NCBI GenBank assembly: GCA_014380365.1
Contig: JACMJZ010000025.1
Coordinates: 186,001-250,000 of the forward strand
Length of the DNA stretch: 64,000 nt
Source of the DNA: Pyrinomonadaceae bacterium
GTDB taxonomy: Bacteria > Acidobacteriota > Blastocatellia > Pyrinomonadales > Pyrinomonadaceae
Reading direction: 5' to 3'
This document shows positions 1,699 to 57,943 of the stretch, piece after piece; the stretch's first letter is position 1; every line of letters starts with the position of its first letter. The position numbers were made by a program, and so were the translations under genes. The notes beneath the pieces are model-generated. The model saw only the letters and a program-made list of their open reading frames with translations, did not search any database and was not told the origin of the DNA.

Positions 1699-3846
1699 TT
1701 ACTGGCCTGGAGCGCCGTAGCACTCAAGCTCGACGATGCGCGAGTAGTGTGCCCGGCCCATGTTGACGACGATGCGAATTCCCGTCGTCGTGACGGGCGA
1801 GCCGAGGGAAATCACACGCATCGCTTTCGTGTTACCGGTGATGGTTCCACCAGGCACGGTTACCCACAGCACTCCGTTCCAGGTTTGGATCTCGAAATCC
1901 TGAATGCCGTAGACACTGGCGTCCGTGTTCTCGTCAGGTACGACTGGATTGCGGTAGTCGTTTTGCAGCGTGTAGACATGAACCTCGCTGATAGTCTTCG
2001 CGCCGCCGCCAAAGGTGATGTCGAGGCTGTCCGGCCACGCATCTCGAGTGGCGTCGTTCCAACCGCCGCCCTGTTCCCAACCGCCGCCCGAGCGTTCGCC
2101 ATCAAAGGCGCTGTCGGTCGAATAGTTGCGGGTGGTGTAGGTTGACGATGCGGCGGGCACCGACCCAAGAGTTGTTAATGCGTAGTTGACCAATCCAGTG
2201 TCGACATCCTCGAGAGCGAGTGTGACGGCTTCGAGGGCGTCGATGCGGCCCCAGCCGTAGGTGTTGTTGGGAACCTGCGTAGGCGTGTCGCCGCCGCATC
2301 CTTCCGCGGTGAACTTCTTCGCCGCGCTCTGTTCGATGATCTCCTCAATGCGATCCACGTTGCCGGCCAGGGCAGGATTGGCGGAGATTACCAGCGCGAC
2401 CAATCCCGCAACGTGCGGACCGGCCATGCTGGTGCCGCTCAGGCTGCCGTATGTGCTATCGCTGCCGCGCAGGGACGAACGAATGGTCGAACCGGGCGCC
2501 GAAATGTTCGGCTTAAGATAAAGAGGAGCGGTCGGGTTGTCCGGATCAGCGGCGGCTGGACCACGGCTGCTGAAGTCGGAGATCGTATCTGTGGTATGCA
2601 TAGTCGAGCCTACGGTGAACGCCTCCGGGTAACGCGCGAGCGGATGATAGATGGTATTGCAACCTGGGGCAGGACCGGGCGCACCGTCGTTACCGGCTGA
2701 GGCGACGTAAACGATGCCGGCAGCGCGGCTCGCCTTGAGCGTGTCTCGCAGTGGATTCGGTTCCGGCGGACAACCCTCGACACAACCCCACGAGTTGTTA
2801 ATTACGTGCGGCGCTTTAGAGGTGTCGGGATTCAAATCGTTAGTGTCGGTGGGAGCTATGAACCATTCCATGCACTCAAGATAAGTCGGGATGGCGCCGA
2901 CGCCATTGCTCATGTTGCGGCAAGCCATCCACTTCGCTTGCGGGGCCATACCGATCAGGTTGGTAGCGCCGTCGTCGCCGACCATCGTGCCGACTGTGTG
3001 CGAGCCGTGGCCGCCTCCCAGAATCTCGTCGTCGTCGCAAGGCTCGGGGTTTGGCTGGCCCGCGCCGGTGACACCGCCGGGATTGCAGATGTTCGCGGGC
3101 TCGGGTGGCCAATTCGGAATGTGGATCGCGTCGTGCCAGTTGTAGTTGTGATTGGCGCTGGTGCCGTTCCAGCCGCGGTACTGATTCTTCAGCGCATTGT
3201 GCGTCCACCTGACGCCGGTGTCTGCTCCGGCAACGACCACGCCTTGTCCTTCGAAGCCGAGGGCCCACGCATCATCCGCGTTGACCTTCCTGATGCCCGG
3301 CTCAGGAGTTGGTAGCACCAGCGGGATGTTGGGCGAATTGGGCGACTCCGCTCTGGAAGCGCCACCGTCCTGAGGCGGAAGCTTTAACGCTCCCTTGCCA
3401 ATCGGATAGACGGCAGCAACCTCGGGCAGTGTCGCCACAGCCTGCAACACAGTCACGTCGCCTTTAGCCCACACCACGTTTGAGATCCAGAACGACTTGT
3501 ACTGTGCGCCGCGTTGCGCCAGCGCCTGCTTCACGTTGACCTGTGTGCTGGCAGCGTTTGCAGTCAGGCGTTGGTAGACGTAGCTTCCTTTTTCGTTTTT
3601 GGTCGCGAGCGTTTTCGCGCCGCTCAGGTCAGCCTGCTGTTTCATGTAAATCAGAAACTCTGTCTGGCCCAGGGCCACGCTTTCCAACACGCGTGCGTCA
3701 ACCTTCGTCCGCCAATCCGGCGCCGCGGCTTTTCCCAGCCCGACCTGTGCGCCGGAGCGCGGCGAACTCGTGAAGGCGATGAGCACCAAACCTGCCACGA
3801 CTAGCAAACAAAACAGCTTGATACGAATTCGTTTCTGGCTCTTCAT
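1699..3846 (-). CDS. Secreted S8 subtilisin-like peptidase with C-terminal discoidin-like domain
   Basis: ATG at 3846 follows GGGAGA with a 7-base gap; a TTG two codons earlier is too close to that site. A signal peptide (MKSQKRIRIKLFCLLVVAG...) is followed by an I9-like propeptide to about residue 150, then a subtilase domain with all three catalytic motifs: AGADTG (Asp near 209), GGGHGSHTVG (His near 280) and SGTSMAGPHVAG (Ser near 473), plus ASAGNDG for the oxyanion Asn. Residues ~555-715 form the C-terminal domain shared with the four genes upstream (WEQGGGWND, WVTVPGG, HYSRIVELE). It should be an exported, self-activating endopeptidase held by that domain. It is the last gene of the run 12882-16745, 8269-12630, 3931-8019, 1699-3846, all minus strand, and may be read from the promoter at 16847-16891. 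Enzyme class is secure; substrate unknown. Confidence 0.93.
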   Translation of the reverse strand: MKSQKRIRIKLFCLLVVAGLVLIAFTSSPRSGAQVGLGKAAAPDWRTKVDARVLESVALGQTEFLIYMKQQADLSGAKTLATKNEKGSYVYQRLTANAASTQVNVKQALAQRGAQYKSFWISNVVWAKGDVTVLQAVATLPEVAAVYPIGKGALKLPPQDGGASRAESPNSPNIPLVLPTPEPGIRKVNADDAWALGFEGQGVVVAGADTGVRWTHNALKNQYRGWNGTSANHNYNWHDAIHIPNWPPEPANICNPGGVTGAGQPNPEPCDDDEILGGGHGSHTVGTMVGDDGATNLIGMAPQAKWMACRNMSNGVGAIPTYLECMEWFIAPTDTNDLNPDTSKAPHVINNSWGCVEGCPPEPNPLRDTLKASRAAGIVYVASAGNDGAPGPAPGCNTIYHPLARYPEAFTVGSTMHTTDTISDFSSRGPAAADPDNPTAPLYLKPNISAPGSTIRSSLRGSDSTYGSLSGTSMAGPHVAGLVALVISANPALAGNVDRIEEIIEQSAAKKFTAEGCGGDTPTQVPNNTYGWGRIDALEAVTLALEDVDTGLVNYALTTLGSVPAASSTYTTRNYSTDSAFDGERSGGGWEQGGGWNDATRDAWPDSLDITFGGGAKTISEVHVYTLQNDYRNPVVPDENTDASVYGIQDFEIQTWNGVLWVTVPGGTITGNTKAMRVISLGSPVTTTGIRIVVNMGRAHYSRIVELECYGAPGQ

Positions 3847-3880
3847 TTTCAATTCTCCCTTTCCTGATTACATCCCTAAG

Positions 3881-3928
3881 TGGCACGGGCGTCCCGCACG
3901 TGGATCACGCGCAAGATGCGCGTGCCAC
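3881..3928. repeat. Palindromic repeat family R1 (HAQDARAT-type), copy 1
   Basis: A 48-bp element from TGGCACGGGCGTCCCGC to GATGCGCGTGCCAC, with terminal TGGCACG/CGTGCCA inverted ends. Near-identical copies lie at 21800-21886, 28854-28900, 34704-34751 and, inverted, 35634-35680. This copy fills nearly the whole gap between two exoprotein genes. Confidence 0.85.
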
Positions 3929-3930
3929 AA

Positions 3931-6900
3931 TTACGGGCATCCCAACGCTTCGACTTCGGTGATGCGGCTGTAGTGAGCGCGCGCGTTCAGGACATTGATC
4001 CTGATGTTTGTGGTCGTCACGTACGGGAAGGTGACGGTCCTCATAACTTTGTCGTTCCCGCGGATGGCGCCTCCCGGCACGGTCACCCACTGACTTCCAT
4101 CCCAGTACTGGATGTCGAAGTCAATCAGGCCGTAGAGCGTCGCCGTCATCTCGGGTGTCGGCTCCTGCGGGTTGTTGAAATTGTCCTGCACGGTGTAGAC
4201 ACGGATTTCGTTGATCAACTTACTGCCGTTAAAGCTGACGGTCAGTGCATCCGGCCAGGCGCCGCGCGTGTTGTCGTTCCAGCCGCCGCCGTTTTCCCAG
4301 TTCAAGCCTTTGCGATCACCATCAATCGCGCCGCCTGGCGAGTAGTTGCGGGTCGTGTAGGTTGAATCTGCACTTGCGATGGCTCCGGCAATTGCAGCAG
4401 CGACGTTACCGAGCGTCGTGCAGACGGCCGCCAGACAATCGGCCAGGTTGTTGACCGCGACGTTGTCGATGTACCAACCGCTCTGCGCGCCGGCCGTCGT
4501 ACCGACATCCGAAGTCATGCGGAAGCGAATATAAACGGGCAAGGCATTTGGATTGTGGAGACCGCCTGCGAAGGACCGCAGCGAAATCTTCACACGGCTC
4601 AGTGCGCCAGAGCCGGTGAACGCGCGCCGTCCCTGGAGCGCAGACAAGATGACGCCGTTAAGTGATCCGTCAAGTTTGCCGTTGTAGCCGTTCTGGATAA
4701 TGTAATTCCCTAAGTCGAAGGTCGACGTATTGTCCGGGAACGGCGTGGCGTTGAAGTTAGGCGAGCCGACGGCGAGTTCCATCACGCCACCGTCAAACGC
4801 TCCTTCGGTGCTAAAGAAGTGGTCAAACTCCATCACCGAATCGGCGGTTAAGGTGAGCGGCCCGATGACGGCCGAAAAGTCACTCGGTGCGCCATCAGAA
4901 CCCGGATCAAAGTCCGGTGCATACACTCCGGCAGACGGCGTGCCTCCAAAATCCATGTTCGGTACCCGCTGGAAAGCAGCGAGAGCTTGATCCGGTGTGG
5001 CCGAATCCTGTAGCGGCGGCGTGAACCGACTGTTGGCTGCTCCGGTCTCGAACGTCTCGTTGGCGAAAACCGGCGGCGTCGCCAGTAGCGGCGATGTCGG
5101 CGCGCTAAAGCGCACGATAGTGTTGCCGGTGTTGTTGGTGTCGATGCGCCCGTTGTTCCGGTCGCGGGCCTGCACGATGTAGTAGTAAGCCTGATTTCGC
5201 TGGAGCCCGGTGTCCGTAAACGAAGTGCCGGTCACATCCGTCTGGATGCGGTTGGCCGAGGACGGTGTAAAGGCTGGGTTCTGTGTGCCGTTACCCTGGC
5301 CGACTGAAGAGACGCGGTAGACGTCGTAGACTAGGTCGGCGTTCAGATTGGCGGAAGTTGCCGGCAGCCAACTCAGCGTCAGACGATCACACAACTGCGA
5401 ATCGGTCACTGCGGCCAGGCCGGCGAAGACCGGATTGGGGACCTGCGTCACTGCGCCGGGGAGGAGAATGTCCCACATCCCGCGACCGTGCGTCGCAATG
5501 CGGAGTTTGCGCTCCGAGGTGATGCCCATGTCGAAGACTGCAACGCGCGGCAGGCCCGTTCCCACCGGCGACCAGGTGGCTCCGCCGTCTTCCGAGCTAT
5601 AGACGCCGATGTCCGTGCCGGCGATCAGCCGGTTTGACTCCGACGGGTCCACGAGAAAGGAATTGACCGGCACCTGCGGCAATGTGTTCGCACCGGAACC
5701 GACCACAGCCGTCCAATTCGGTGCGGTCAAGCTCGTCGTCTTCCAGACGTTGCTAACGCCGAACGCCGAAAGCGTGACGTAAGCCGTGTTGGGGTTGTTC
5801 GGATCAATCACCGCGCGGGCGACGAAGTTGTTCGGAACAACGTTCAGCGGATCGAGGTTGGTCAACGAGGCCGAGCCCGCCGTGGTTCCCCAGAGTCCGC
5901 CCGTCCGCAGTCCGACCAGGCGAACGTTGTCGTTGGTCGGCGAGATGCCAATGGCGCTGATGGGAATGCCCGCCGGCGGCGTCACCGCTGTGTTGAGTTC
6001 AATCGGCGCCTGGCTCGAAACGACGTTGACGAGGCCTTTGTTGTCCGAACGATAGAGCCGGTCGGTGCCGTAATAAATCGTGTTCGGAGTGCCCGGCCCG
6101 GTTTCGAGCGGCGCATAGAACAGCACCGAGTCGGAACAGGTGATGCCGTTGCCCGTGCCGGCAATCTGGCAGCCGCGAAACGTCCAATTCTCGAAGGCGT
6201 TCACGTCCTCACTGAAAGCGAAACCCATAACAGCGCCGCCCGGCGCGTTTGAGTTGTAGTAAGTGTGATACATGGTGGCGCCGGTGTCCCCGGAACTCTG
6301 GTCAATCGCCGCGTAGCCGCCGTCGCCGTAGTCCGTGCGCCGCCAGGTGCCGTCGAAGCGCAACATCTCTGTACCGTTGTCCTGAGTGCCGCCGATGGTG
6401 AAATTGGGATCGTTCGGGTGAATCGCCACGCTCATAAACTGCGTCGCGCTGAAGGTGCCGTTGCTCAGGCTGGTCCACGACGCGCCGGCATTGTTGGAAC
6501 GGTAAATACCGCCGTCACTGCCGAAGTAAACGACCTGCGGGTTTGAAGGAGCGACGGCGATGACGTGCGAATCCACGTGCAGTCCCTGAGCGCTCGTGAC
6601 AAACGAGGTGCCGCTGTTGGTCGAGATGCCGAAAGGCAGAGCGGGCGAGCCGCCGAGATAGACGCGGCTGGCGTTTGTGGGATCGACGTCAATAGCAATG
6701 TCGTAGAAGCACTGCGGGTTGCAGAAGTTGTTGTTCACCGCCTGCACCCACGTCCCGCCGCCGTCAGTCGAGCGATAGACCGTGCCGGTGGCGATCGCCG
6801 ACGCCGCATAGACCGTAACTGTTCCGCCGATTTTATTGATCGCCAGTTCGGTCCTGGTCGCTGTCGAAGTTGTGCCGGCGAGGTCCAGCGTTTTGGTGAA

Positions 6901-8019
6901 GGTCGGCACGGCATCCATCGCATTGGTCGTCAGGAACAACCCGCCGTTGTCAGCCGCTGTCGGAGGAGTGGTTGCTAAAGCTGCAGTCCCCACAATAGAC
7001 GCAACGATGCGATTCGGATTGCCCGGCTCCATCACCATATCCACGATATTGCGATTTTCACCAAGGCCTATCGCCGTCACGGCGAGTTTGGTAAACGTCG
7101 GCGAAGCGGACATGGCGTTGGTCGAGCGGAACAACCCGCGATTCGGCAAGGCGCCGGGTGTGGAGGGGCCGATGCCGCCGATGCCCGACGTGCTGCTCAC
7201 GAAAATAATGTTCGGGTCGGTCGGATGTACGAGAACCTCGCCAATTGCGCGGCCGCTGAGCACATCGTTGTTAGCTGTGTCGCGATTGATGGGCCCGGTG
7301 ATGGTCGGCGAGGCGCTACTGGCGTTTTCGATGCGGTACAACCCGACACCGAAGAAGCTGCTGGCGGAAAAGGTCTGCTCGCCGGTCCCGACGAAGAGGA
7401 TTTCGGGATTGGACGGCGCTAACGTCAGCGTACCGATGGCCAGCGACAAGGCACTGTCCATGAGCGGCGTCCACGTCGTGCCGCCGTTGGTGGTGCGATA
7501 TAAGCCGCCTTGCGCAGTACCGACGTAAGCGATGTCGGGGTTGGTCGGATGTACGGCAATCGAAACGGTCCGACCGCTCACGGCGGTCGAAACGCCTACG
7601 GTCTGGCCGTTTGGAATCGGGAAGGGACCGATCGGCGTCCAGGCCCCGGTGATGCCCGGTGGCAGCAAGCTGGACTGCGACGATGATCCAGGGGCTCCAA
7701 GGGCTCCAGGGGTGGCTATTCCAGGGGCGGGGGAGGTTGAGCCGAGCAAGCGCTGTTGCTGCAGGTTCAATTTTTTCACGGCAGCAATTCGCAAGGCCGG
7801 ATTAACTGGCAAGCCGTTGCCAAGGCCGCGCATCAGAGCGATCTGCTCCTCACGCCGGAGCATGTATTCTTCCTTGCTCATCGCATTTTTCCATGTCCGC
7901 GGGACGTCAGGATCGTCGTCCGTGAATAACTCCCGGGTCGCTTTGCCGATGAACGGAACCGCCAGCAGAATGAGCAAAGTTAAAGAGCAAACACTCGTGA
8001 TGACTATCGCTTTTTTCAT
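3931..8019 (-). CDS. Large secreted Asp-box (sialidase/BNR-like) protein with C-terminal discoidin-like domain
   Basis: ATG at 8019 has GGAG seven bases upstream and opens a signal peptide (MKKAIVITSVCSLTLLILL...); an in-frame ATG ten codons earlier lacks such a site. About 1362 residues. The first two thirds hold many beta-propeller-like repeats with Asp-box motifs (TTNGGTTW, STDGGGTW, SNNAGASW, SEDGGATW), followed by a fibronectin-III-like stretch (LSWLPATSANLNADLVYDVYR), a jelly-roll-like stretch beginning NETFETGAANSRF, and the shared C-terminal domain from about residue 1215. Asp boxes occur in sialidases, but also in VPS10-like and photosystem-assembly propellers; I see no sialidase FRIP or catalytic arginine pattern, so enzymatic activity is not claimed. 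It is likely a secreted binding or glycan-acting protein. It lies between the S8 and M12B genes. Confidence 0.88.
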   Translation of the reverse strand: MKKAIVITSVCSLTLLILLAVPFIGKATRELFTDDDPDVPRTWKNAMSKEEYMLRREEQIALMRGLGNGLPVNPALRIAAVKKLNLQQQRLLGSTSPAPGIATPGALGAPGSSSQSSLLPPGITGAWTPIGPFPIPNGQTVGVSTAVSGRTVSIAVHPTNPDIAYVGTAQGGLYRTTNGGTTWTPLMDSALSLAIGTLTLAPSNPEILFVGTGEQTFSASSFFGVGLYRIENASSASPTITGPINRDTANNDVLSGRAIGEVLVHPTDPNIIFVSSTSGIGGIGPSTPGALPNRGLFRSTNAMSASPTFTKLAVTAIGLGENRNIVDMVMEPGNPNRIVASIVGTAALATTPPTAADNGGLFLTTNAMDAVPTFTKTLDLAGTTSTATRTELAINKIGGTVTVYAASAIATGTVYRSTDGGGTWVQAVNNNFCNPQCFYDIAIDVDPTNASRVYLGGSPALPFGISTNSGTSFVTSAQGLHVDSHVIAVAPSNPQVVYFGSDGGIYRSNNAGASWTSLSNGTFSATQFMSVAIHPNDPNFTIGGTQDNGTEMLRFDGTWRRTDYGDGGYAAIDQSSGDTGATMYHTYYNSNAPGGAVMGFAFSEDVNAFENWTFRGCQIAGTGNGITCSDSVLFYAPLETGPGTPNTIYYGTDRLYRSDNKGLVNVVSSQAPIELNTAVTPPAGIPISAIGISPTNDNVRLVGLRTGGLWGTTAGSASLTNLDPLNVVPNNFVARAVIDPNNPNTAYVTLSAFGVSNVWKTTSLTAPNWTAVVGSGANTLPQVPVNSFLVDPSESNRLIAGTDIGVYSSEDGGATWSPVGTGLPRVAVFDMGITSERKLRIATHGRGMWDILLPGAVTQVPNPVFAGLAAVTDSQLCDRLTLSWLPATSANLNADLVYDVYRVSSVGQGNGTQNPAFTPSSANRIQTDVTGTSFTDTGLQRNQAYYYIVQARDRNNGRIDTNNTGNTIVRFSAPTSPLLATPPVFANETFETGAANSRFTPPLQDSATPDQALAAFQRVPNMDFGGTPSAGVYAPDFDPGSDGAPSDFSAVIGPLTLTADSVMEFDHFFSTEGAFDGGVMELAVGSPNFNATPFPDNTSTFDLGNYIIQNGYNGKLDGSLNGVILSALQGRRAFTGSGALSRVKISLRSFAGGLHNPNALPVYIRFRMTSDVGTTAGAQSGWYIDNVAVNNLADCLAAVCTTLGNVAAAIAGAIASADSTYTTRNYSPGGAIDGDRKGLNWENGGGWNDNTRGAWPDALTVSFNGSKLINEIRVYTVQDNFNNPQEPTPEMTATLYGLIDFDIQYWDGSQWVTVPGGAIRGNDKVMRTVTFPYVTTTNIRINVLNARAHYSRITEVEALGCP

Positions 8020-8100
8020 TTCAGTTCTCCCGTTTCTCACTGATGTCAAGCATCGACATTGTTAGATCTTAACTAGTGCATTTTGGAGTCGGACTACATT

Positions 8101-8197
8101 CTCTTTGCGTAACTTTGCGTCTTAACTTCGCGCCCTTTGCGGTCCTTCTTGCCGGTTTACCGCAAAGGTCGCAAAGAACTCGCAAAGGTTCGCAAAG
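8101..8197. repeat. Palindromic GCAAAG repeat family R2, copy 1
   Basis: About 97 bp. The left half is rich in CTTTGCG, the right half in CGCAAAG, forming a long imperfect inverted repeat. The same design occurs at 37693-37784, 40421-40515 and 62770-62864, always between genes. Confidence 0.85.
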
Positions 8198-8268
8198 TAA
8201 CTCCCCCAGTACTTGTTTTCCCGCGCGATTCGGGGCGCCCACGGAGGGACGCCCCTACAAACATCGAA

Positions 8269-11200
8269 CTACTGTCCTGATGCGCCGTATGCTTCGAGCT
8301 CGACGATGCGGCTGTAGTAGACGCGGCCGTTCGTGACGAGCACGCGCACTTTCGTCGTCGTTATCGGCGTGCCGAGGGTGATAACCCGCAGCGCCTTTGT
8401 GTTACCCGTAATCGTTCCACCCGGCACGGTTACCCACGCCGTCCCGTCCCACGTCTGTACCTGGAAGTCGAGAATGCCGTAGGTGCTGGCGTCTGTGTTT
8501 TGGTCAGGAGTCACCGGCGAATGGAAATTGTTCTGCAGCGTGTAGACGCGTATCTCGCTAATCGTCTTAGCGCCGCCGCCGAAGGTGACATCGAGGTTGT
8601 CGGGCCAGATCCCGCGGGTGTTGTCGTTCCAGCCGCCGCCCTGTTCCCAGTTCGCTCCCGCCACTTCGCCGTCGGAGGCGCTGGTCACTGAATAGTTGCG
8701 ATCGGTGAACGTGGACGAAGCTGAAGGGACGGAGCCGAGCGCCGTCAGCGCGTAATTGACCAGACCGCTCACCGGAACGACTGTTACCTGAACGGTTGCA
8801 GTAGCTGTCCCGCCGTTGCCGTCTGAGGCCGTATAGGTGAACGAATCCTGCCCATCGAAGCCGGCGTTGGGTTGATAGGTAAGAAGTGATCCGCCATCAG
8901 TAATCACCACTGCGCCGTTTGCGCCTTGAGTGACAGATTGAATTGTTAAGGTCTCGCCGCTGTCGGGCGCGTCAGTATCGTTGTGTAGAACGTCGATGGT
9001 GTTGGGTCCGCTGTTTTCATTCACCGTCGCGTTGTCGTCGCCCGCCTGCGGGTTGTCGTTAACCGATGCCACGGTCATGTTCACGTCGGCGTTGGCGCAG
9101 AGTGGACCGGGATCGCAGACGGTGTAGCCAAAGCTGTCGGGGCCGAAGTAGTTCGGGTCCGGCGTATAGGTCACGGTGCCGTCGCCGTTGTTGATGACTG
9201 ACCCATGCGGTGCATCCGTTACGGCCGTGACCGTGAGCGTGTCGCCGTTTGGATCGGTGTCGTTCGCCAACACGTTGATGATCTTCGCGGTGTCTTCATT
9301 GGTCGTGTCGGTGTCGTCTACGGGTGTAGGCGGCAGCGGACAGTTGTCGTTTTCGACGAGCAGGTTGGTGAACTGCACGTCGTCGATCCACCAGCGGGTT
9401 CCCTCGGCCACCAGCACGCCGTTGTCGAGGGCCAGACGCCAGCGCAGTTTTCTGCCGATGCCTGCGTAAGCGCCGAGATTCACTTCAACTCGATTCATGT
9501 TGGGGAGAGATGGTGACTGGCCTGACCAGGCCGCACGGCCCGCGATCGGACTGGCGAAGCCGGAGTCGATGACTTCGGTGTAGCCGCCCGCGACAAAGTT
9601 CTCTGGACCAACGTCAACCCAGGTAGAGCCTCCGTCGGTGCTGATCTCCAGAACGCCGCCGTCGTATCCGGTTTCAAAAGTGAACCGATGCCAGAAGATC
9701 AGCTTGCTGGAAGACGAAAGATCCTGTGGCGGAGAAATAAGCCGGTCATCCTTCACATCGGGCGCGGAGGCGTCGCTGTTGTAGGAATTTGTGCCGCTGT
9801 GCGCCGCCGGATCCGCTCTGACTGCCCACGTCTCACTTACGGGAATGGTGTTCACTTCCGTTTGCACAGTCCACCCCGGCGTCTGAGGCGGCTCAAAGTC
9901 GTCGTTGAAACTTCCGTTGGTCAAAGGCGGACAACCCGACGCGACCGTCACCGTGACGAGCGCGCTATCGGTTTGGCCGCCGCCGGTGATCGTGTAGTTA
10001 AAGGTGTCCACGCCGGAGAAGCCGCCGGCAGGTGTATAGAGAATTCGATCGTCGGTGGTGTCGCCGGGGGTGCCGTTGTTGTCGACCGTGGCGGTTCCGC
10101 CTTGGCCTGTGGGCGAGTCGACTGCGGTGATGGAGAGCGGGTCATCCGGATCGAAGTCGTTTGCCAGAACTGGAATGATTACGGGGACGTTGACGTTAGT
10201 GGACGCTGCATCGTCTACGGCGACGGGCACGCCGCTCGCCAACACCGTGACGGTGACGAGCGCGCTGTCGCTTTCGCCGCCGGCGGTAATCGTGTAGGTG
10301 AAATTATCTGCACCGCTAAAGCCGGTGGCCGGTGTGTAGACTATGCGGTCGTCGCCGGGCTCGGAGGTTCCATTGTTATCGACCACTGCCGTGCCGCCAT
10401 TCGTCGTGGGCGACTGGACACTGGTGATGGCAATCGGATCGCCAGTCGGGTCGGAGTCGTTAGCCAAGACTGAGATGGTCACCGGCGTGTCGACGGCGGT
10501 GGTAGCCGCATCGTCAACCGCTACCGGCGGACCAACGCTGGCCTGGATCGCAAAGTTGTTGTTCGAAATATCGAAGAAGATGTTCCCGGCGCCTTCAACC
10601 TTTATCCGCGCCTGACTCGTGGAGACATTCGGCGCCGCCACGCTATGCGAGCCATCGTTGGGAACGTTGGTGGCCAGCACGTGCGGGAAGGTCAAACCGC
10701 CGTCGATGGAAAGAAGGATGTTGACGTTTTGCGTGTCGATGGGATCGGGGCCGGTAGCCGTAGTCGTGTTGGCCGGGTCCCATGTCACGTTCTGGATTCC
10801 GCCGCCGGTCCAACTCTCGCCGCCGTTGGGTAACAAAACCCGGAATCCTGTGGCGTGTGCGGTGACGTTTACCCGTGTGCAGTCGTAGTCAACGCCGCCA
10901 GCGCCGGCGCGGTTGTCGCGGACCGTGACGCAGAAATCCATCTTGCGCGTGGTGGTCGGCAACTTCTCACCATATGGGCTCGTGTTGTTAAGCAGGCTTG
11001 AGAGCTTGGGGAACGTTCGTGTCGGACTCGTCGTCGGATCGAATGAACGCAGGATAGGCGAGGCGCCGTTGTCGGTGTTGCCGTCTCCCGCCGCGCCCAG
11101 GTCAAACTCCTCCCAGGTGTAGGTGAGGCCGGCATCCGTCGCGTCGGCGTCGTTACCGACCGCAGTCAGCGCGAAGGCCGTCCGGGCTGGAATGTTGTAG

Positions 11201-49819: not shown

Positions 49820-52800
49820 GTGAATAGCCTCTCGCCAACGCCAGTTGCAGTCCCAAATCCGATTGGGTTTGAAGATATTGACTTGGGGCCAATTCGGCAT
49901 GTTACTCTCCGAGAAAGCGAAACCAGCATCCAGAGGCAGAAGTCGATGGCTAAAACCCGGCAGGGGAAGCCCCTGCAAACTACGCCCGACCCGGCATTCG
50001 TGCAAACACCGGGGACTGAAACTTCGGGCGGCCATCCCAGTTTCTTTCTGCGCACGAAGCTGCTGCCGCCACGTCCTGCTCCGGAGTTACTTTCTCGCGT
50101 TCGACTAACGGAACGCCTTCTCGCAAATCTCGCGAATCCCGTTACGCTCGTCACCGCCAACGCCGGATCCGGGAAAACCACACTCGTCGCCGATTTCCTC
50201 CGCACCCACAAGCGCCCGTACGTTTGGTATCAATTGGATCACACGGATGCAGATCCTTTTGTGTTCCTTGGCTATGTGACGTTTGGCATTCAGCAGGTTG
50301 TGCCTGGTTTCGGTGAGACGATGTTTTCTTACCTGCAGGAAACAACTGACGAGCTGGCCCAGCACCCTGAGCGCGCGGTCGACGTTTTACTAAACGAAGT
50401 CCTGGATCGAGTTGATCAGCAACTGATACTGATCCTGGACGACTATCACCATTTAGGAACCAACACCCCGGTTCACTCAGTCCTCGATCGGCTGCTGGCA
50501 TATTTGCCGGACGTGCTGCACGTCGTCATTATCTCGCGCGAAATGCCGCCGCTGTCGCTCGCTCGATTACGCACGCAAGCTCCGCATTCAGTTATTGATC
50601 GGTCTGATTTGTTGTTCACTGACGACGAAACGCAGGAGCTGTTTCGCAAAGTTTTCGATCTTGAGCTAACGCCCAAGCAGCTCTCGGAATATCGCGAGCG
50701 CACGCACGGATGGATTACCGCGTTGCAATTAGTGCGGCAGGTAGCCCACCGGGCAGTGACAAGCTCCCGGGAGGAACACCCCGAACCACCTGATCTCGTG
50801 GACGTGTTACGGCAGTCAGAACGGGACATTTTTGACTACTTTGCCGAAGAGGTTTTTGCAGACGAGCAGGAGGACCTGCAACAACTTCTTTTGAAAATGT
50901 CGATCATCGATCGGATCGACCTGGAGACTTGTGCTTCGCTCTTTGGGGGGATGAATTGCTCGAGAGTTCTACCAACTCTGGTGCGTCGCAATGTCTTTAT
51001 GACCGTCGCCAGCGACGAGCGCGGCGAAGAATATCGCTTGCACCCGCTCTTTCAGAGTTTCTTGCGGCGGCGGCTGCGCAGCGAACTGGGCCGCGCAGGC
51101 GTTTCTGCCGAGCACCAGCGTTGTGCGACATATTTTTTGGAGCGGCAGTCGTGGGAACAGGCGGTCAGGCATCTGGTTTCTGCAGAAGACTTTGATCGCG
51201 CAGCGGCTGTGATTGCGGACAAAGGCGCCAAGTGGATCTCTTCGGGCGCGATGGCTTCACTGGCTTCGTTGGCGGACTCGATTCCGACACCGTCACTCGA
51301 GTCACACCCTCGCGCTGTCGCACACCGAGCGGAGGTAGCTCGTTTGCGCGGCGAATACGAAGTGGCGCAAGCCACATTTCACCGGGCCGCCGCCCTGCTG
51401 AAACAACAGGCGGACACAGAGGGCGAGGCGGAAGCGCTTCATTCGCTGGCAACTCTGGCCCGGCGGAAGGGCGATTATCAGCTTGCTTTCACTTATCTGG
51501 ATCGCGCACTCGAATTAGCTGATGCGAATTCCGTTGTCCGCACCAAGTGTGGAAATACGCGCGGCCTTTGCCTGGTGGCGATGGGCGAGTGGACCGCAGC
51601 GGAACGGGAGTTTCGCAGCGCCTTACAGTTGGCCGAAGAACAAAACGACGAGCACTACACCAGGCTGATTGCTCACAATTTGGGGACCCCGGCGGGAATG
51701 CGGGGAGACTTTGGCGAGGCCCTGCGCTGGCTGCGCCGCATGCTGCCGAGAGATCTGCAGCGGTCGCCGATGCCGCAGGAGGCAGTTGCTCACCTGAACA
51801 TGGCTAGATGCTACCTGTACCGCGGCGACTTCGAATCTTCCGAACAGCATCTGGATAACGCGCTGGAGCGTTGCCAACTCTTCAATTTAGTCGCCGCACG
51901 CGCAGAGACTTTCGAAACCTATGCCAACCTCTATCGCGAACGCGGAGATATTGAAAAAGCTAACGAGTACTACGAGCGCGCCGCACGCGCTTACGATGAG
52001 GCCGGAATCAATCTCGCCCGGACAGAGCTCTTTGAAGAACGCGCAGTCCTGAGCATGCACGTAGGCGACTTTAATGCGGCACGCCACCAAATCGACCGGC
52101 TCCTGGCTTCACGGCCATTAGAGAAAGACGAAATGGGTTTCTACACAGCTTCCCTGACTCGCGGAAGGATTATGACCGCCCAGGGTGATTTCGTAGCGGC
52201 ACGCCGGGACCTGGGTGAAGCGCTCGAGTATTTTCACTCGCACAGCCTTTATTACTACGAAGCGCAGGCCTGCGTAGCCATCGGCCGGTGCGACCTCAAG
52301 TCTAACGACGAGCCGAAGATGCTGGAGCACTTGAAGCGCGCCGTCGATCTCGCCGTCCGCTACGACTACGAATACTGGATCAAGCGCGAGGTGCTGAACA
52401 ATCCGGAGCTGTTCTCCACCGAAGAGATTGCCGAACTCTTGCCTGCGGATTTGCGGGCCCAGGTTTCCCAGGCAGAAACTACTCCAGAAAAACCGATCGC
52501 CGTCCAGGCCGCTGAGATAGCGCTGACTACTAAACCGGTGACTGACCTTGCGCTTAATCTGCTGGGCCCGGTCGAGGTTGTCCGTGATCCCACGCGACCC
52601 CTGGCCGTGGACGCATGGACTACGCGGCGGTCGCGCGACATTTTGTGCTTCATCGCTTCCAGGCGTCACCACCGGGCTTCGAAGGATACGATTATTGACA
52701 CGTTTTGGGGCGAGACTGACTTTGAAGTTGTGGAAAAGAATTTTCACCCAACCGTCTCGCATATACGCAAGGCCCTAAACAGTAATCAACCGCTAAAGCA

Positions 52801-53299
52801 GAATTTCCTGCTTTATCGGGATGGCGACTACCAGTTGAACTCCGAGTATTCCTACCGAATTGATCTCGAGGATTTCGACCGTTTGCTGAGTGAAGGCGAA
52901 AACGCCCGGCGGGCAAGGCAATTCGAGGAATGCGTCCAGGCCTATGAAAGCGCAATTGCGCTCTATCGTGGCGAGTTCATGCAGGGGAGCTATGAGCCCT
53001 GGGTGGAGGAGCAAAGGACGTACTACCGCGAGCAGTATTTGCGTTTGCTCGAGGCGCTTGCCGGTGTGGCCCAAAAGACGGGGGACTGGTCAAAGTCGAT
53101 GCAGCTCGCGCAACGCATCCTGCACGAGGATCAGTTTCGCGAGGACATTCATTGCCTGATTCTTCGGGCCCAGGCCGCGCTAGGGAATCGGGGCGCGGTG
53201 AAAGAGCATTACGAAGGGCTAAAAAGGCTATTGCAAGAGGAACTGGGGGTCGAACCGAGCGCTGAAACCAAGCGGCTTTATGAAGAACTGAAGGGATAA
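49820..53299 (+). CDS. BTAD-containing SARP-like transcriptional activator with MalT-type NTPase
   Basis: 1159 residues from GTG 49820, with GAGG seven bases upstream. After a 70-residue N-terminal extension comes a MalT/LuxR-type NTPase (FLRTKLLPPRPAPELLSRVRL; P-loop at 114-120; Walker B LILILDD near 203-208), helical and TPR repeats (about 400-890), then an OmpR/PhoB-type winged helix near 905-990 (LNLLGPVEVV...FWGETDFEVVEKNFHPTVSHIRKALN) and a BTAD domain to the end (FDRLL...ELGVEPSAETKRLYEEL). SARPs of Streptomyces carry winged helix plus BTAD at the N-terminus; here the order is reversed. Such proteins bind 11-bp direct repeats, which is what sites a-f show. Likely master activator of the exopolysaccharide and exoprotein genes; the inducer sensed by NTPase/TPR is unknown. 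Confidence 0.93.
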   Translation: MNSLSPTPVAVPNPIGFEDIDLGPIRHVTLRESETSIQRQKSMAKTRQGKPLQTTPDPAFVQTPGTETSGGHPSFFLRTKLLPPRPAPELLSRVRLTERLLANLANPVTLVTANAGSGKTTLVADFLRTHKRPYVWYQLDHTDADPFVFLGYVTFGIQQVVPGFGETMFSYLQETTDELAQHPERAVDVLLNEVLDRVDQQLILILDDYHHLGTNTPVHSVLDRLLAYLPDVLHVVIISREMPPLSLARLRTQAPHSVIDRSDLLFTDDETQELFRKVFDLELTPKQLSEYRERTHGWITALQLVRQVAHRAVTSSREEHPEPPDLVDVLRQSERDIFDYFAEEVFADEQEDLQQLLLKMSIIDRIDLETCASLFGGMNCSRVLPTLVRRNVFMTVASDERGEEYRLHPLFQSFLRRRLRSELGRAGVSAEHQRCATYFLERQSWEQAVRHLVSAEDFDRAAAVIADKGAKWISSGAMASLASLADSIPTPSLESHPRAVAHRAEVARLRGEYEVAQATFHRAAALLKQQADTEGEAEALHSLATLARRKGDYQLAFTYLDRALELADANSVVRTKCGNTRGLCLVAMGEWTAAEREFRSALQLAEEQNDEHYTRLIAHNLGTPAGMRGDFGEALRWLRRMLPRDLQRSPMPQEAVAHLNMARCYLYRGDFESSEQHLDNALERCQLFNLVAARAETFETYANLYRERGDIEKANEYYERAARAYDEAGINLARTELFEERAVLSMHVGDFNAARHQIDRLLASRPLEKDEMGFYTASLTRGRIMTAQGDFVAARRDLGEALEYFHSHSLYYYEAQACVAIGRCDLKSNDEPKMLEHLKRAVDLAVRYDYEYWIKREVLNNPELFSTEEIAELLPADLRAQVSQAETTPEKPIAVQAAEIALTTKPVTDLALNLLGPVEVVRDPTRPLAVDAWTTRRSRDILCFIASRRHHRASKDTIIDTFWGETDFEVVEKNFHPTVSHIRKALNSNQPLKQNFLLYRDGDYQLNSEYSYRIDLEDFDRLLSEGENARRARQFEECVQAYESAIALYRGEFMQGSYEPWVEEQRTYYREQYLRLLEALAGVAQKTGDWSKSMQLAQRILHEDQFREDIHCLILRAQAALGNRGAVKEHYEGLKRLLQEELGVEPSAETKRLYEELKG

Positions 53300-53569
53300 C
53301 GCCCCTTGAACGATCCAGGCTGATGATTCGTGGTGAAAACGCAAGGATTACGCAACACATGCTACCGGGTCTGAACTTAGAATGCACCACGCTTTTCGGA
53401 AGCTCAATGGGTTGCTCGGCCCCGGAATCAGGAAGACTGAAGCCGGCAACATTAACAATTGAGCACAGGTCTTTGGATACGAAAAGCTACAGTGCGGAAA
53501 CGCACCCTCGCCAAGTAAGGCCAAGCAGAGTGGCATGACTACGCCGATAAACCCGACTGAGGTGATAGT

Positions 53570-56500
53570 TTGCTCAGAATGACAGTCTCTATCAGTTTAA
53601 TAATAAGAAAAGCGAACAGATCAATCGCGCTGGTTCTGTGTCTGCTGATGAGCGTTTCACCAGCAATGGCGGGGCTCGCGATCACCGCAGCAAACGGCAT
53701 CGTCATGACCGGAGCCGACGGCATCGTGATGACGGGCGCGGATGGCATCGTGATGACCGGCGCTGACGGGGCTCTAACCTGGGGCCCGAACGGCATTGTG
53801 ATGACCGGCGCTGACGGCATTGTGATGACGGGTGCGGATGGCATCGTGATGACCGGGGCAGACGGGTTCTCCTATCCAAACAGCGTGCGAAGCTCCAGTG
53901 CGGACGGGATCGTGATGACCGGCGCTGATGGCATCGTGATGACCGGGGCGGATGGCATCGTGATGACCGGGGCCGACGGCACCACCCGAACCGCCGACTC
54001 CGTAACGATCACAGTCGCGAACGGAATCGTGATGACCGGCGCGGATGGCATCGTGATGACGGGTGCGGACGGCGTCCGGCGCAATGCCGACGGCATAGTG
54101 ATGACTGGCGCCGATGGAATTGTTATGACTGGCGCTGACGGAATTGTGATGACTGGCGCCGACACGGTACGCGCAAAGGGACCTGACGGCGTTCCCTATT
54201 CAGTTGTTCCCAATGACCTACGGTTTGCAGGCGTGACCGGCATTGTGATGACTGGCGCCGACGGGATCGTCATGACGGGCGCGGACGGCATCGTGATGAC
54301 CGGCGCGGACGGCATTGTGATGACCGGAGCCGATAGTGTTCCGCGCACCGGTTTGCAAAGCGTCGATCCCGAGCTGGCACTTCTGCTGGACCGAGCGGTG
54401 GACGACAGCAGCATTAACGCAGTGGTGGTTTATCACCAGCTGCCGACTGAGGCCGACCTTTCAGAATTGAAGTCAATCGGGATTACCGGTGGGACGCGCT
54501 ATCGCGCACTGCCAATAGTGAGCATCACCGGCACACGCCGGCAGATAGCCGCGATTTCCCACTTGCCGGCGGTTCGTTCGATTTATGGAAATCGCACTTT
54601 GACTTTTAATAGCGAGCCCGAGGTTCGCGCGGTTACTGGCGTGGATCGCGCCCGACGTGATGCTGAACTCACGGGTCACAATCGGAGTCTTCCGGTCACA
54701 GGCCGCAATGTCACTGTTGCCGTGCTCGACACAGGCATTGACGCGACCCATGGCGACCTCGCCGGTCGTGTAGTCAAGAACATCAAGTTGGCCGACACGC
54801 AGAGTGTTGGCGCCGGTTTCAGCTATCCAATCAATTCTGAAAATCTACCGAATACAGATCAACTCTACGGACATGGAAGTTTCGTGGCAGGAATCATCGC
54901 CGGTAACGGCAGCCTTTCGGGCGGCAAGTTTGCCGGAGTAGCACCTGATGCCCGTTTAGTCGGACTCAGCGCCGGCGACTTGACCCTCGTCTACGTGCTC
55001 AACGGTTTCGACTATCTGCTGTCGAACCGCGCAGAGCTGGCGACGAAAGTGGTTAACTGCAGTTTCTCGGCGAACACCGTTTTCGATACAAACGACCCTG
55101 TCAACGTCGCCACCAGAATGCTGACTGAAGCCGGAATCAATGTCGTCTTTTCGGCAGGAAACACCGGCCCCGGCGCACAGACACTGAATCCTTATGCGGT
55201 TGCCCCATGGGTTGTCAGCGTCGGCGCCACCGATACGCAGGGCCGCTTGGCCAGCTTCTCATCGCGGGGAGATTTTGCCAGCGGTCTGTTTCGTCCCACG
55301 CTGGTTGCGCCAGGAGTCAGTGTCGTGAGCGTTCGCGGTTCGGGGATCACCAGCGTGACCGGGGCCGAGGGACTGGCAGGCGCGGATGCGCAACGATTGA
55401 GCACTTCGGAAATACCAAACTACACTACCGCCAACGGCACCAGCTTTTCCGCGCCGCAGGTGGCGGGCGCCATCGCGCTAATGCTCGAGGCCAAACCTTC
55501 GCTGACACCGGCGCAGGTTCGTGAAATTCTTCAGCTCACCGCGACTCCCTTAGCTCCTTACTATGCGCACGAAACAGGAGCGGGCATGCTGAATGTTCAT
55601 GCGGCGGTGCTCCAGGCAGCATTTACCGAACGGCGTTTGGGCGCTTGGCGCGGCATAGCTGATCGCGGCCAGGTCCAGTTTCTCAAAGATCCGCTCACGA
55701 CATTCTCCGGTACAGCCCAGGCGGGAACCCCTTCCGACACGACCCTGAAAATTCCAGACCACGCACTCTTTGCTTCAATCAAGATCGGTTGGGGACCGCT
55801 CTGGAGTTTGAATGACCTTGGCCTGCAGGTGTTCGATCCGGGCGGATCTCTGCGCGGTCAAGCGAACGCGATCAATCTGATTGGATTGACTGGAAAGCGC
55901 GAAAGTGTTGCTTTGAATTCTCCGGCGCCGGGCGCTTGGCGGCTGAGCGTGCGAAACACGGTCGGCGGATTGGGTACTGCACAACCGTATGTGGGCGTGC
56001 TGGATGTTGGTCGCGCTCGCTATGCGCGGATGACCGATCTTGACCACCTCAGCCCGGCTGTGCGAGAAGACATCTACCAAAACATCCGGACGTTTACGAT
56101 GTGGCCCATTGGTTCTCATTTCCGTCCGGATCACCCGGTCAGCCGATTGGACCTGGCCACGGCGCTCGTGTCCGGCGGTCGCGTTCCACAATATCTCGGC
56201 CGTAGTTCAGCCTACCGGGACGTGACAGACTCGGCTTCGAGGCTGTTTGTGGAAAGCGTTCAGGCATCGCCCAAAGGAGCATTATTTGCCGATGCCGCGC
56301 CGGGAGGCCGGTTCCGGCCGCATGATAATGTCACCCGACTTGTAGCTGCGGTTGCGCTAGTCAAAGCTGCCGGTCTGCGTACTGAGGCAGAAACAAAAGC
56401 CGGTACTCCTCTGGCATTTCTCGACGCCAGGAGTATCCCCTCTGAGTTAAAAGGATATGTGTCGGTGGCGATTTCAAAGGGCTTGCTCCAAGGCGACACT

Positions 56501-56581
56501 CTCTTCCGGCCCGACACCGCAGTTACCCGAGCAGAGCTAGCTCAGGCTATTGCCGCTCTGGAGCGACGCGCAATCCAGTAA
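53570..56581 (+). CDS. Surface subtilase with GIVMTGAD octapeptide repeats and SLH motifs
   Basis: 1003 residues from TTG 53570, with GAGG seven bases upstream; ATG at 53579 is the alternative. A signal peptide (IALVLCLLMSVSPAMAG) leads into residues 43-255, which hold 18 exact copies of GIVMTGAD in six clusters (3, 3, 3, 2, 3, 4) with unique linkers. A short propeptide-like part (INAVVVYHQLP) precedes the subtilase domain: VLDTG (Asp387), YGHGSFVAG (His435) and NGTSFSAPQVAG (Ser625). Residues ~840-1000 contain three S-layer homology motifs (HFRPDHPVSR, RFRPHDNVTR, LFRPDTAVTR). The enzyme should be exported and bound to the cell-wall polymer by its SLH part. The repeat block is unlike any subtilase prodomain I know. 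Lies directly downstream of the regulator gene, 270 bp away. Confidence 0.92.
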   Translation: MLRMTVSISLIIRKANRSIALVLCLLMSVSPAMAGLAITAANGIVMTGADGIVMTGADGIVMTGADGALTWGPNGIVMTGADGIVMTGADGIVMTGADGFSYPNSVRSSSADGIVMTGADGIVMTGADGIVMTGADGTTRTADSVTITVANGIVMTGADGIVMTGADGVRRNADGIVMTGADGIVMTGADGIVMTGADTVRAKGPDGVPYSVVPNDLRFAGVTGIVMTGADGIVMTGADGIVMTGADGIVMTGADSVPRTGLQSVDPELALLLDRAVDDSSINAVVVYHQLPTEADLSELKSIGITGGTRYRALPIVSITGTRRQIAAISHLPAVRSIYGNRTLTFNSEPEVRAVTGVDRARRDAELTGHNRSLPVTGRNVTVAVLDTGIDATHGDLAGRVVKNIKLADTQSVGAGFSYPINSENLPNTDQLYGHGSFVAGIIAGNGSLSGGKFAGVAPDARLVGLSAGDLTLVYVLNGFDYLLSNRAELATKVVNCSFSANTVFDTNDPVNVATRMLTEAGINVVFSAGNTGPGAQTLNPYAVAPWVVSVGATDTQGRLASFSSRGDFASGLFRPTLVAPGVSVVSVRGSGITSVTGAEGLAGADAQRLSTSEIPNYTTANGTSFSAPQVAGAIALMLEAKPSLTPAQVREILQLTATPLAPYYAHETGAGMLNVHAAVLQAAFTERRLGAWRGIADRGQVQFLKDPLTTFSGTAQAGTPSDTTLKIPDHALFASIKIGWGPLWSLNDLGLQVFDPGGSLRGQANAINLIGLTGKRESVALNSPAPGAWRLSVRNTVGGLGTAQPYVGVLDVGRARYARMTDLDHLSPAVREDIYQNIRTFTMWPIGSHFRPDHPVSRLDLATALVSGGRVPQYLGRSSAYRDVTDSASRLFVESVQASPKGALFADAAPGGRFRPHDNVTRLVAAVALVKAAGLRTEAETKAGTPLAFLDARSIPSELKGYVSVAISKGLLQGDTLFRPDTAVTRAELAQAIAALERRAIQ
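53696..54334 (+). repeat. 18 codon-phased 24-bp repeats encoding GIVMTGAD
   Basis: Each unit is 24 bp and translates to the same eight residues without exception, while the third codon positions differ freely (GGC/GGA/GGG, ATC/ATT, GTG/GTC/GTT, ACC/ACG/ACT, GAC/GAT). Identical protein with diverged DNA shows selection on the peptide. Spacing between clusters varies from 7 to 25 residues, always in frame. Confidence 0.95.
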
Positions 56582-56647: not shown

Positions 56648-57943
56648 TCAAGAACGCCAATAATCGTGCGAGTTATCAGCAACCATATTCCTTCTGGCAG
56701 CTATTCGGATCTCTGATTGACGCGCTGGAGGTGTTGTTGCACCCCGTCGTACGTGGTAGCTAAGATTCTCAGGATCCGAGCCAACGCCGTAGGGAGCTTG
56801 CTCGCCTTCCTCGACGATAATGGCGATTACAGTTTGCCCGTTCACATCACACTGCTCAACTTGGGTTTTCGGCTCAGGATGGACCTTTGAGCGAATCATC
56901 TGCTTAATTCTATCCTTCTCCCGACCGACATCGCACTTCATGCCTTTTATCTCGCCTGTTCCGTTGACGACTCCTATTACGATCATTCCCCCTTCGCCAT
57001 TCGCGAATGCTGCCACTGTTTTCAACATTCTCTCATCGTGCGGCGGAACACTTTCTTTAAACTCAGCCTTTTCACCTTCGCCGCGGGCGATTACTCCCGA
57101 AACCTGTGTCGCTAGATCGGGCGGGCTCGTGATCACGTTCTCCCACGGCGACGACGTTCCATACTGGTTGAGATCACGCAGATCCAACCAGCGACTGTCA
57201 CGCGAGAGTAAGAGCCACAAGCGCTGTGGCAAGCCGTCCGGGAAAGGAAACTCTATCTTGCGCAGCTCGCGTAATTTTTCATCGAAGCGTGTGTCTGGCG
57301 AGCCAGTCACCTCTAGTCGAGCGCCTGAAACTGCGTCGCCTTGCACGGTCACACAAAGCGAGTTGGGCTTTAGTTCCACGCGATCAATCCAAGCCTCTAT
57401 GTGAGCGACCCGCAGAATTATGGTGGTAGTTGGGAAACCGGAATCAGAATTGACGTCACGATCAAAAAGATGCTTGAACGCGGCCACGCCAAGAGCAGGA
57501 AACGATGGACAGCCATCATGGACTAATGGATCTCGTTTCTGCTTTGGCTCAGAGCGGCTAAACTTGGAATGTAATTCGTAAACGGAATGAGGTTGCCAAA
57601 GCCCCTCGAATCCACGGTAGCGGGAATGGCTCGGAAAGCGCTCTGAGCGTATCTGTTCGTTCAACTCAGGAATCTCGAAGGAGTAACCCTCCAACTCACC
57701 CCGTCTTAGTGGCAACCACTTGGCGATTTCCTCGCCCGGCATTGTGCGAGCAATGAAGACTATGTGTTCGTAGTCGAATACGGTCCACGAAGGGTTTGCT
57801 AAATCAGGCGCGACAGTAAGCACCATGGTTTGCATTAGCCACTCATCTTTTGCCTTTGTGAGGGCCACGCGAAGTGAAACTTCCGATTCGCTTTGCAATA
57901 GGGCGAGGAAGTCTGTCAATTTCAGTTCCTCTTGCACTAACAT
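56648..57943 (-). CDS. AlbA_2 (Schlafen-like) domain protein with novel N-terminal half
   Basis: 431 residues from ATG 57943. The C-terminal third (about 290-400) has EGEKAEFKESVP, VAAFANGEGGMIVIGVVNGTGEIKGM and SYHVRRGATTPPA, the AlbA_2 (AAA_4-like) pattern seen in Schlafen relatives, transcription regulators and defence proteins. The first 280 residues are not recognised; they contain RGFEGLWQPHSVYELHSKF. Opposite strand to everything around it and somewhat different in composition. Function not assigned; a stress or phage-defence role is only a possibility. Confidence 0.82.
   Translation of the reverse strand: MLVQEELKLTDFLALLQSESEVSLRVALTKAKDEWLMQTMVLTVAPDLANPSWTVFDYEHIVFIARTMPGEEIAKWLPLRRGELEGYSFEIPELNEQIRSERFPSHSRYRGFEGLWQPHSVYELHSKFSRSEPKQKRDPLVHDGCPSFPALGVAAFKHLFDRDVNSDSGFPTTTIILRVAHIEAWIDRVELKPNSLCVTVQGDAVSGARLEVTGSPDTRFDEKLRELRKIEFPFPDGLPQRLWLLLSRDSRWLDLRDLNQYGTSSPWENVITSPPDLATQVSGVIARGEGEKAEFKESVPPHDERMLKTVAAFANGEGGMIVIGVVNGTGEIKGMKCDVGREKDRIKQMIRSKVHPEPKTQVEQCDVNGQTVIAIIVEEGEQAPYGVGSDPENLSYHVRRGATTPPARQSEIRIAARRNMVADNSHDYWRS

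Follow-up and report, generated by a model that had tools for sequence, protein, structure and literature searches.

A number of described systems each share part of the design of the gene considered here, a secreted protease of Acidobacteriota that carries a long array of short identical repeats. In Tk-SP, a subtilisin-like protease of Thermococcus kodakarensis (PDB 3afg), and in other S8 proenzymes, an I9-type propeptide, an S8 domain and a C-terminal beta domain follow one another in the same succession. Vpr, an extracellular S8 subtilase of Bacillus, self-assembles into fibrils (PDB 8jmw, PMC10657474). Bacterial ice nucleation proteins carry octapeptide or 16-residue repeats for which stacked beta coils have been proposed (PMC3918373). 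Lastly, RRNPP pairs such as PlcR-PapR are recognized by a receptor of 250-500 amino acids with peptide-binding tetratricopeptide repeats (TPRs), a secreted propeptide of 10-100 amino acids and the adjacency of the two genes (PMC10075063). Our subject is a 64,000-nucleotide stretch of a Pyrinomonadaceae bacterium (assembly GCA_014380365.1, contig JACMJZ010000025.1; hereafter the window), in which an open reading frame (ORF) encodes a subtilase bearing 18 identical copies of the octapeptide GIVMTGAD. The alignment of this protein to Tk-SP starts only past the repeats (octads), and neither the octad domain nor the S-layer homology (SLH) region has a counterpart there. Vpr resembles the array subtilase in its S8 region, by sequence and fold, but has no octad array, and the match is to the protease and not to the repeats. 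Ice nucleation proteins are likewise bacterial and built on octapeptides; however, they give no sequence match, the array subtilases lack a conserved TxT motif, and the octads described here are, unlike theirs, identical within a protein, lineage-specific and carried on a protease.

The 18 exact copies of GIVMTGAD lie at residues 43-255 and occur in 18 distinct 24-nt DNA versions, with no near-miss copy found in the ORF. Codon mismatch among them is 0.82 times the value predicted if each copy drew its codons independently according to the usage of the gene itself (on a slightly different count, 3.78 observed vs. 4.60 +- 0.15 expected). As residues are fixed while codons are near random, it is the peptide that is conserved and not the DNA. 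A first-pass annotation, made from the sequence alone, had reported the invariant copies with their varied codons and had concluded that the peptide itself is under selection, and on both counts we concur. A described repeat family, which by its own account would have told against it, did not turn up: the octad region gave nothing over cut-off in Pfam or NCBIfam and no significant match to PDB sequences. A search of the genome found no other gene matching the octads, GIVMTGAD does not occur in 5.39 million open-access papers, and we found no description of the octad architecture in the literature.

A scan of 84,980 species genomes for orthologous loci returned 50, all from Acidobacteriota metagenome-assembled genomes (MAGs) of Blastocatellia/Pyrinomonadaceae type. 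After these came more remote S8 proteins, from Firmicutes and Bacteroidetes, whose alignment leaves out the octads, as it starts no earlier than about mature residue 214-258. A close S8 homologue is present in 47 of 119 genomes of the window's family, and the same architecture recurs in a second Acidobacteriota clade (gp22 MAGs, family f24) with seven copies of GIRWNDVG, or with GIRWNDTG or GLRWNDVG. Orthologues keep the architecture, not the octapeptide. The 46 Blastocatellia arrays have 25 different majority octads, such as GITLTGAD, GITATGAD, GIQVTGAD and GLSLTGAD; in a tree of S8 domains GITLTGAD is common in one clade, and elsewhere close relatives carry differing octads. The first-pass annotation had looked to relatives for conservation of the repeats, and repeats are indeed kept, but the octapeptide is not: each relative has its own, which had not been foreseen.

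Within any one protein, by contrast, the units agree closely. Octads were collected at >=5/8 matches to the array majority, a filter that favors sameness somewhat yet would retain most single and double differences; among the 769 octads of 48 arrays, 81% equal the majority of their own array. At positions 2, 3 and 4, mismatch within arrays is 0.04, 0.04 and 0.12, whereas between array majorities it is 0.36, 0.47 and 0.79, and pairwise residue mismatch at these positions stands at 12-27% of the between-array level. Positions 1, 6 and 8 (G1, G6, D8) are nearly fixed across Blastocatellia arrays. Residues tolerated at one position across species (V, T, A, Q, R or S) are thus rarely mixed within one protein, even though the codon mismatch among copies has a median of 0.92 of expectation (range 0.63-1.10 in 44 arrays, with 23 of the 44 at or above 0.9). 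Gene conversion evens codons and residues alike and consequently cannot by itself explain sameness with random codons; recent tandem duplication is rejected as the source of identity in most arrays because their codons are randomized. Paralogues of one genome differ as well: GITATGTD in L103 vs. GITVTGAD in L104 (MAG9), GVTATGSD in L110 vs. GVTFTGAD in L134 (MAG45), and arrays of both GIRWNDVG and GLRWNDVG in G159, with the caveat that these comparisons come from MAGs and mis-binning may affect them. Matching would therefore take place inside the protein or with the protein's own module, and a single cell-wide partner for the octads is unlikely. A genome-wide peptide dialect is rejected, both because paralogues differ and because small secreted proteins of these genomes (described below) carry other motifs. 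These observations suggest that sameness among octads is itself selected, rather than any particular sequence, an evolutionary pattern that is, to our knowledge, unusual.

Close relatives give some indication of how such arrays change. In the sisters L134 (GVTFTGAD), L130 (GVVMTGAD) and L137 (GLSLTGAD), whose S8 domains are 86-92% identical, nearly every octad differs, and L130 retains one relic unit, GLSLYGAD. The linkers that separate the rewritten octads stay similar in DNA, and because this orthology is kept, a whole-array swap between species is not supported in the trio. Close pairs with the same octad keep codon orthology unit by unit (L125/L143, p <0.0005; L099/L118, p 0.009), and pairs with a switched octad have lost it. 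Moreover, codon turnover in the closest pairs is more rapid within the octads than in the linkers or in S8, the values for octads, linkers and S8 being 0.75, 0.97 and 0.90 for L105/L106 and 0.60, 0.80 and 0.83 for L130/L137. Rapid turnover, the loss of orthologous unit identity in switched pairs, the relic unit and the likeness of neighboring octads in five arrays would speak for a case in which slippage or gene conversion homogenized the units at the DNA level, the octads had no need to match and sameness were a by-product of recent spread. We nevertheless consider such concerted evolution an unlikely explanation, given near-random codons alongside the low residue mismatch at positions 2-4, and given the codon orthology of L125/L143 and L099/L118, which shows that conversion is not continuous. 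Furthermore, single arrays (L110, L112, L117, L137) use both TCN and AGY codons for serine at one and the same octad position, and the residue most simply arose there independently two or more times. The codon likeness of neighbors implies that local exchange also contributes. Selection for unlike neighboring codons, as for slippage avoidance, is unsupported, neighbors being, if anything, slightly more alike (Stouffer z -1.9). The arrays of mixed composition in L109, L112, L129 and L139 look like intermediate states, and the whole fits exchange between units combined with selection against odd units.

The exact copies are set within a longer regular domain. The first-pass annotation took the linkers between clusters of copies to be unlike one another and to argue against a continuous solenoid, and on both points the lengths and patterns of the linkers speak otherwise. 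Of 261 linkers in the 48 arrays, 135 are exactly 8 residues long and 164 are multiples of 8 (chi-square p ~1e-139, treating as independent linkers that are related by descent); those off the multiples are mostly of 15, 18 or 25 residues. Linkers of 8 residues match the pattern G[IVLF][LT][YF][TV]G[ATP]N. An octad also opens the mature window protein, whose approximately 27 octad slots hold GLAITAAN, the 18 copies of GIVMTGAD and the degenerate octads GALTWGPN, GFSYPN-SVRSSSAD, GTTRTAD-SVTITVAN, GVRRNAD and TVRAKGPD-GVPYSVVPN-DLRFAGVT. A predicted xA/G cleavage site stands at the equivalent place, immediately ahead of the first octad, in nearly all orthologues. The linkers are degenerate in-register octads, and the array is one continuous octad domain that begins at the mature N-terminus; their octad register leads us to reject the view of linkers as unrelated spacers. 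Hydrophobic positions 2 and 4 alternate with mostly polar positions 3 and 5 before a G-A-D turn, which suggests one strand per octad, and a full-length AlphaFold2 (AF2) job placed strands over much of mature residues 71-210 at a predicted local distance difference test score (pLDDT) of 60-75. The domain is most likely beta-solenoid-like, with each octad supplying one strand plus a Gly-Ala-Asp turn.

The ORF as a whole is arranged as follows.

53559-53568, forward strand: Shine-Dalgarno-like GAGGTGATAG upstream of the TTG start, recognized from the sequence
53570-56581, forward strand: subtilase ORF, 1003 amino acids, TTG start
53570-53671, forward strand: signal peptide (residues 1-34), predicted from sequence to be cut between SPAMA and GLAITAAN
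53672-54334, forward strand: continuous octad-repeat domain (residues 35-255)
54350-54607, forward strand: I9-type propeptide domain (residues ~282-340), by AF2 and a profile match to 3afg
54701-55552, forward strand: Peptidase_S8 (residues 378-661; Pfam PF00082, E 1e-45)
55673-56023, forward strand: PPC-like beta-rich domain 3' of S8, by AF2 strands, counterpart of the Tk-SP C-terminal domain
56030-56575, forward strand: C-terminal SLH region, comprising an SLH above the Pfam threshold plus two stretches that look SLH-like by eye
56417-56542, forward strand: the SLH that passes the Pfam cut-off (residues 950-991; PF00395, E 2.3e-11)

The reading-frame context GDSLL ahead of the start is common to G004, G012, G108 and G009. 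The S8 domain holds the D387/H435/S625 triad and N531 at the motif positions, as a subtilase should. PPC matches the beta-rich domain at E 0.063, under the Pfam cut-off. An SLH anchor, which the first-pass annotation had proposed, is likely: of the three SLH repeats by which such anchored proteins bind the cell wall, one passes Pfam and two more can be made out by eye.

That annotation had also placed the repeat block between the signal peptide and an intact S8 domain, as we find, and in the position of a propeptide, where we differ. A domain modeled by AF2 at pLDDT ~90 (mature residues 250-300) stands directly N-terminal of S8, and a profile built from 21 orthologues matches the solved pro-form of Tk-SP over mature residues 227-763 (3afg, E 5e-59), also the best Foldseek match; the Pfam I9 profile gave no score on the ORF. 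With an I9-type domain between octads and S8, the octads lie upstream of the propeptide, and the possibility that they are themselves the subtilase propeptide is rejected. In the usual course of subtilase maturation the N-terminal pro-part is separated from the protease. Should this route be followed here, autoprocessing would detach an octad-I9 fragment from the SLH-bearing protease.

We propose a reading that we hold to be evenly poised between right and wrong, namely that this is a continuous, exported, solenoid-like domain that is released and whose units are selected to match each other. The octad domain would stand ahead of an otherwise ordinary subtilase composed of I9 propeptide, S8, beta domain and SLH. 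Each octad would have to match either the octads stacked next to it or, in a homotypic assembly, the identical units carried by further molecules of the protein, and could consequently change only as a whole array. Such change may proceed through exchange between units together with parallel substitutions, and would leave one octapeptide per protein lineage. An autocatalytic cut at the I9/S8 junction would free the octad and I9 domains from the SLH-bearing protease, and the freed octad domain may then serve outside the cell in structure or in self-recognition. If equivalent strands stack, within or between molecules, the mixing of octads would be costly while whole-array change would be allowed, including at position 4, which is probably buried; stacking would accordingly explain why units agree within a protein, why position 4 is variable and why the degenerate octads keep their register. 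The two ideas of the first-pass annotation, that repeated peptides are released and that the repeats stack as beta strands, both survive.

A number of observations weigh against this proposal. Sameness is strong, not absolute, as arrays mixed at position 4 attest (L/F in L129, V/A/T in L109, I/V/A in L112 and A/I in L139), and the codon likeness of neighboring octads in five arrays points to local exchange as well. The full-length AF2 job gave pLDDT <50 over mature residues 1-71, a second job on the array plus I9 gave ~26-42 over mature residues 1-170 with no confident fold, and no solved structure matched over the octads. Because AlphaFold did not settle the structure of the octad domain, we infer its fold and its function. 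Regular 8-residue spacing, and the likeness of the probably outward positions 3 and 5 in nearly all copies, might instead indicate that each octad binds one copy of a repetitive external partner (a polysaccharide, an ion lattice, ice or a prey surface) and tracks it in sequence, much as octapeptide-based repeats present ordered binding faces in ice nucleation proteins (PMC3918373). We regard this as very unlikely. It is position 4, probably facing inward, that varies most between species, which a surface ligand does not explain; the arrays of GIVMTGAD, GIAVTGAD and GIQVTGAD contain no TxT motif; and paralogues of one genome differ.

The array subtilase is accompanied by a second gene.

49820-53299, forward strand: STAND-type ATPase with TPR repeats and a C-terminal winged helix plus BTAD, a regulator of 1159 amino acids, by Pfam

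With its ATPase, TPR and BTAD domains the product belongs among STAND/MalT-like BTAD regulators (BTAD, E 1e-26; TPR_12, E 1e-26; AAA_16, E 2e-6, under its own cut-off). In 39 of the 40 loci whose upstream flank measures 3.5 kb or more, a homologue stands beside the array subtilase or close to it, co-directional or divergent; L115 is the exception, and in L113 the regulator lies ~3 kb downstream. A neighbor of this kind, 30-33% identical, is present in the GIRWNDVG clade too. S8 paralogues that have no array lack such a neighbor, G015 and G011 being exceptions with a regulator beside one of them. We found no description of the gene pair in the literature. The regulator probably controls the array subtilase gene. 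In L120 (GLTMTGAD; 2413-8916), regulator and array subtilase form one uninterrupted frame of 2168 amino acids.

This pairing raises the possibility, the rival reading of most interest, that the octads are a multi-copy pheromone, cut out by the attached protease or by another one, taken up and read by the TPRs of the adjacent regulator, with one pherotype per lineage; copies would be identical since one receptor reads them all. As in RRNPP pairs, a TPR regulator gene adjoins the gene for an exported precursor (39 of 40 loci, with the same arrangement in the distant GIRWNDVG clade) and the short peptide is lineage-specific. In addition, the precursor has a protease attached, regulator and octad are both particular to each paralogous module, and the genome holds three genes for oligopeptide-binding proteins. 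In a set of 52 close pairs, the farther apart two octads are, the lower is the TPR identity (partial r -0.47, p ~0.006 by label shuffling, controlling for ATPase, DNA-binding and S8 identity). This correlation was obtained after several identity thresholds had been tried and with shuffles that ignore phylogeny; it weakens to p ~0.06 without the GITLTGAD clade, with no signal there in more distant pairs, and coevolution of TPRs and octads is suggestive only. The proportions, moreover, are not those of RRNPP systems, for the regulator (~1150 amino acids, 1159 in the window) combines a STAND ATPase with a C-terminal BTAD, and the precursor (~1000 amino acids, 1003 in the window) brings its own protease and 18 copies and is not from Firmicutes. 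Peptide signaling also leaves unexplained why the octads run on in register as one domain and why degenerate octads are conserved in it; the near-fixed G1, G6 and D8 look structural, there is no processing signal between copies, and regulators of this kind often merely control neighboring genes. We know of no such peptide-signal system in Gram-negative bacteria, and we judge this explanation unlikely. Its fullest form is a two-gene module in which a precursor with ~10-22 identical lineage-specific octapeptides and its own processing subtilase coevolves with a STAND-TPR-BTAD receptor-regulator; this we think improbable, but if true, it would give pherotypes that differ between species and between the paralogous modules of one cell.

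Several loci and neighboring genes are recorded for completeness. In G031, an ORF of 397 amino acids (L073, 7112-8302, reverse strand) runs from a signal peptide through six copies of GVVLTGAD and a partial I9 straight into the winged helix/BTAD that ends the regulator, and represents either a deletion fusion or an assembly error. G419 carries two tandem array-type subtilases (L226, 5422-10732, reverse strand), the second of which is cut off by the contig end; the intact one has an unusually mixed array (GVSVTGAD, GVSVTGTD, GVTVSGAD, GVTISGTD). A short ORF of G222 with VVLTGSPP repeats is unrelated. In the window, a Schlafen AlbA_2 domain protein (56648-57943, reverse strand) is convergent with the subtilase.

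The same bacterial family also has an unrelated family of secreted proteins of ~90-100 amino acids with three to six copies of a short motif (L179-L189, L070). The motif (GIIVAG, GIIIAG, GIIINN, GIIIDN, GILVSD, GIIISD or GIIMSG) is largely uniform within a protein and differs between species. It stands at the mature N-terminus and usually again at the extreme C-terminus, and the proteins have two conserved cysteines and no Pfam or NCBIfam match. Examples of these GIxxxx genes are:

L182, 7732-8028, forward strand: small GIxxxx gene
L181, 7549-7863, forward strand: small GIxxxx gene
L070, 5806-6135, forward strand: small GIxxxx gene

By inspection of the sequences, their neighborhood is conserved in L070, L179, L182, L185, L188 and L189 and comprises a protein of ~750-800 amino acids, a cysteine-desulfurase-like gene and a radical-SAM-like protein (CDMRCTHCFF).

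The octad arrays are a clean example from nature of repeat units that seem to be selected for being identical to one another and not for their sequence, and some 50 natural variants make both the uniformity of arrays and their change as a whole directly testable. For a poorly studied phylum, they bring to light an undescribed conserved gene pair that is likely to yield either an extracellular domain of mutually matching units or a peptide signal.

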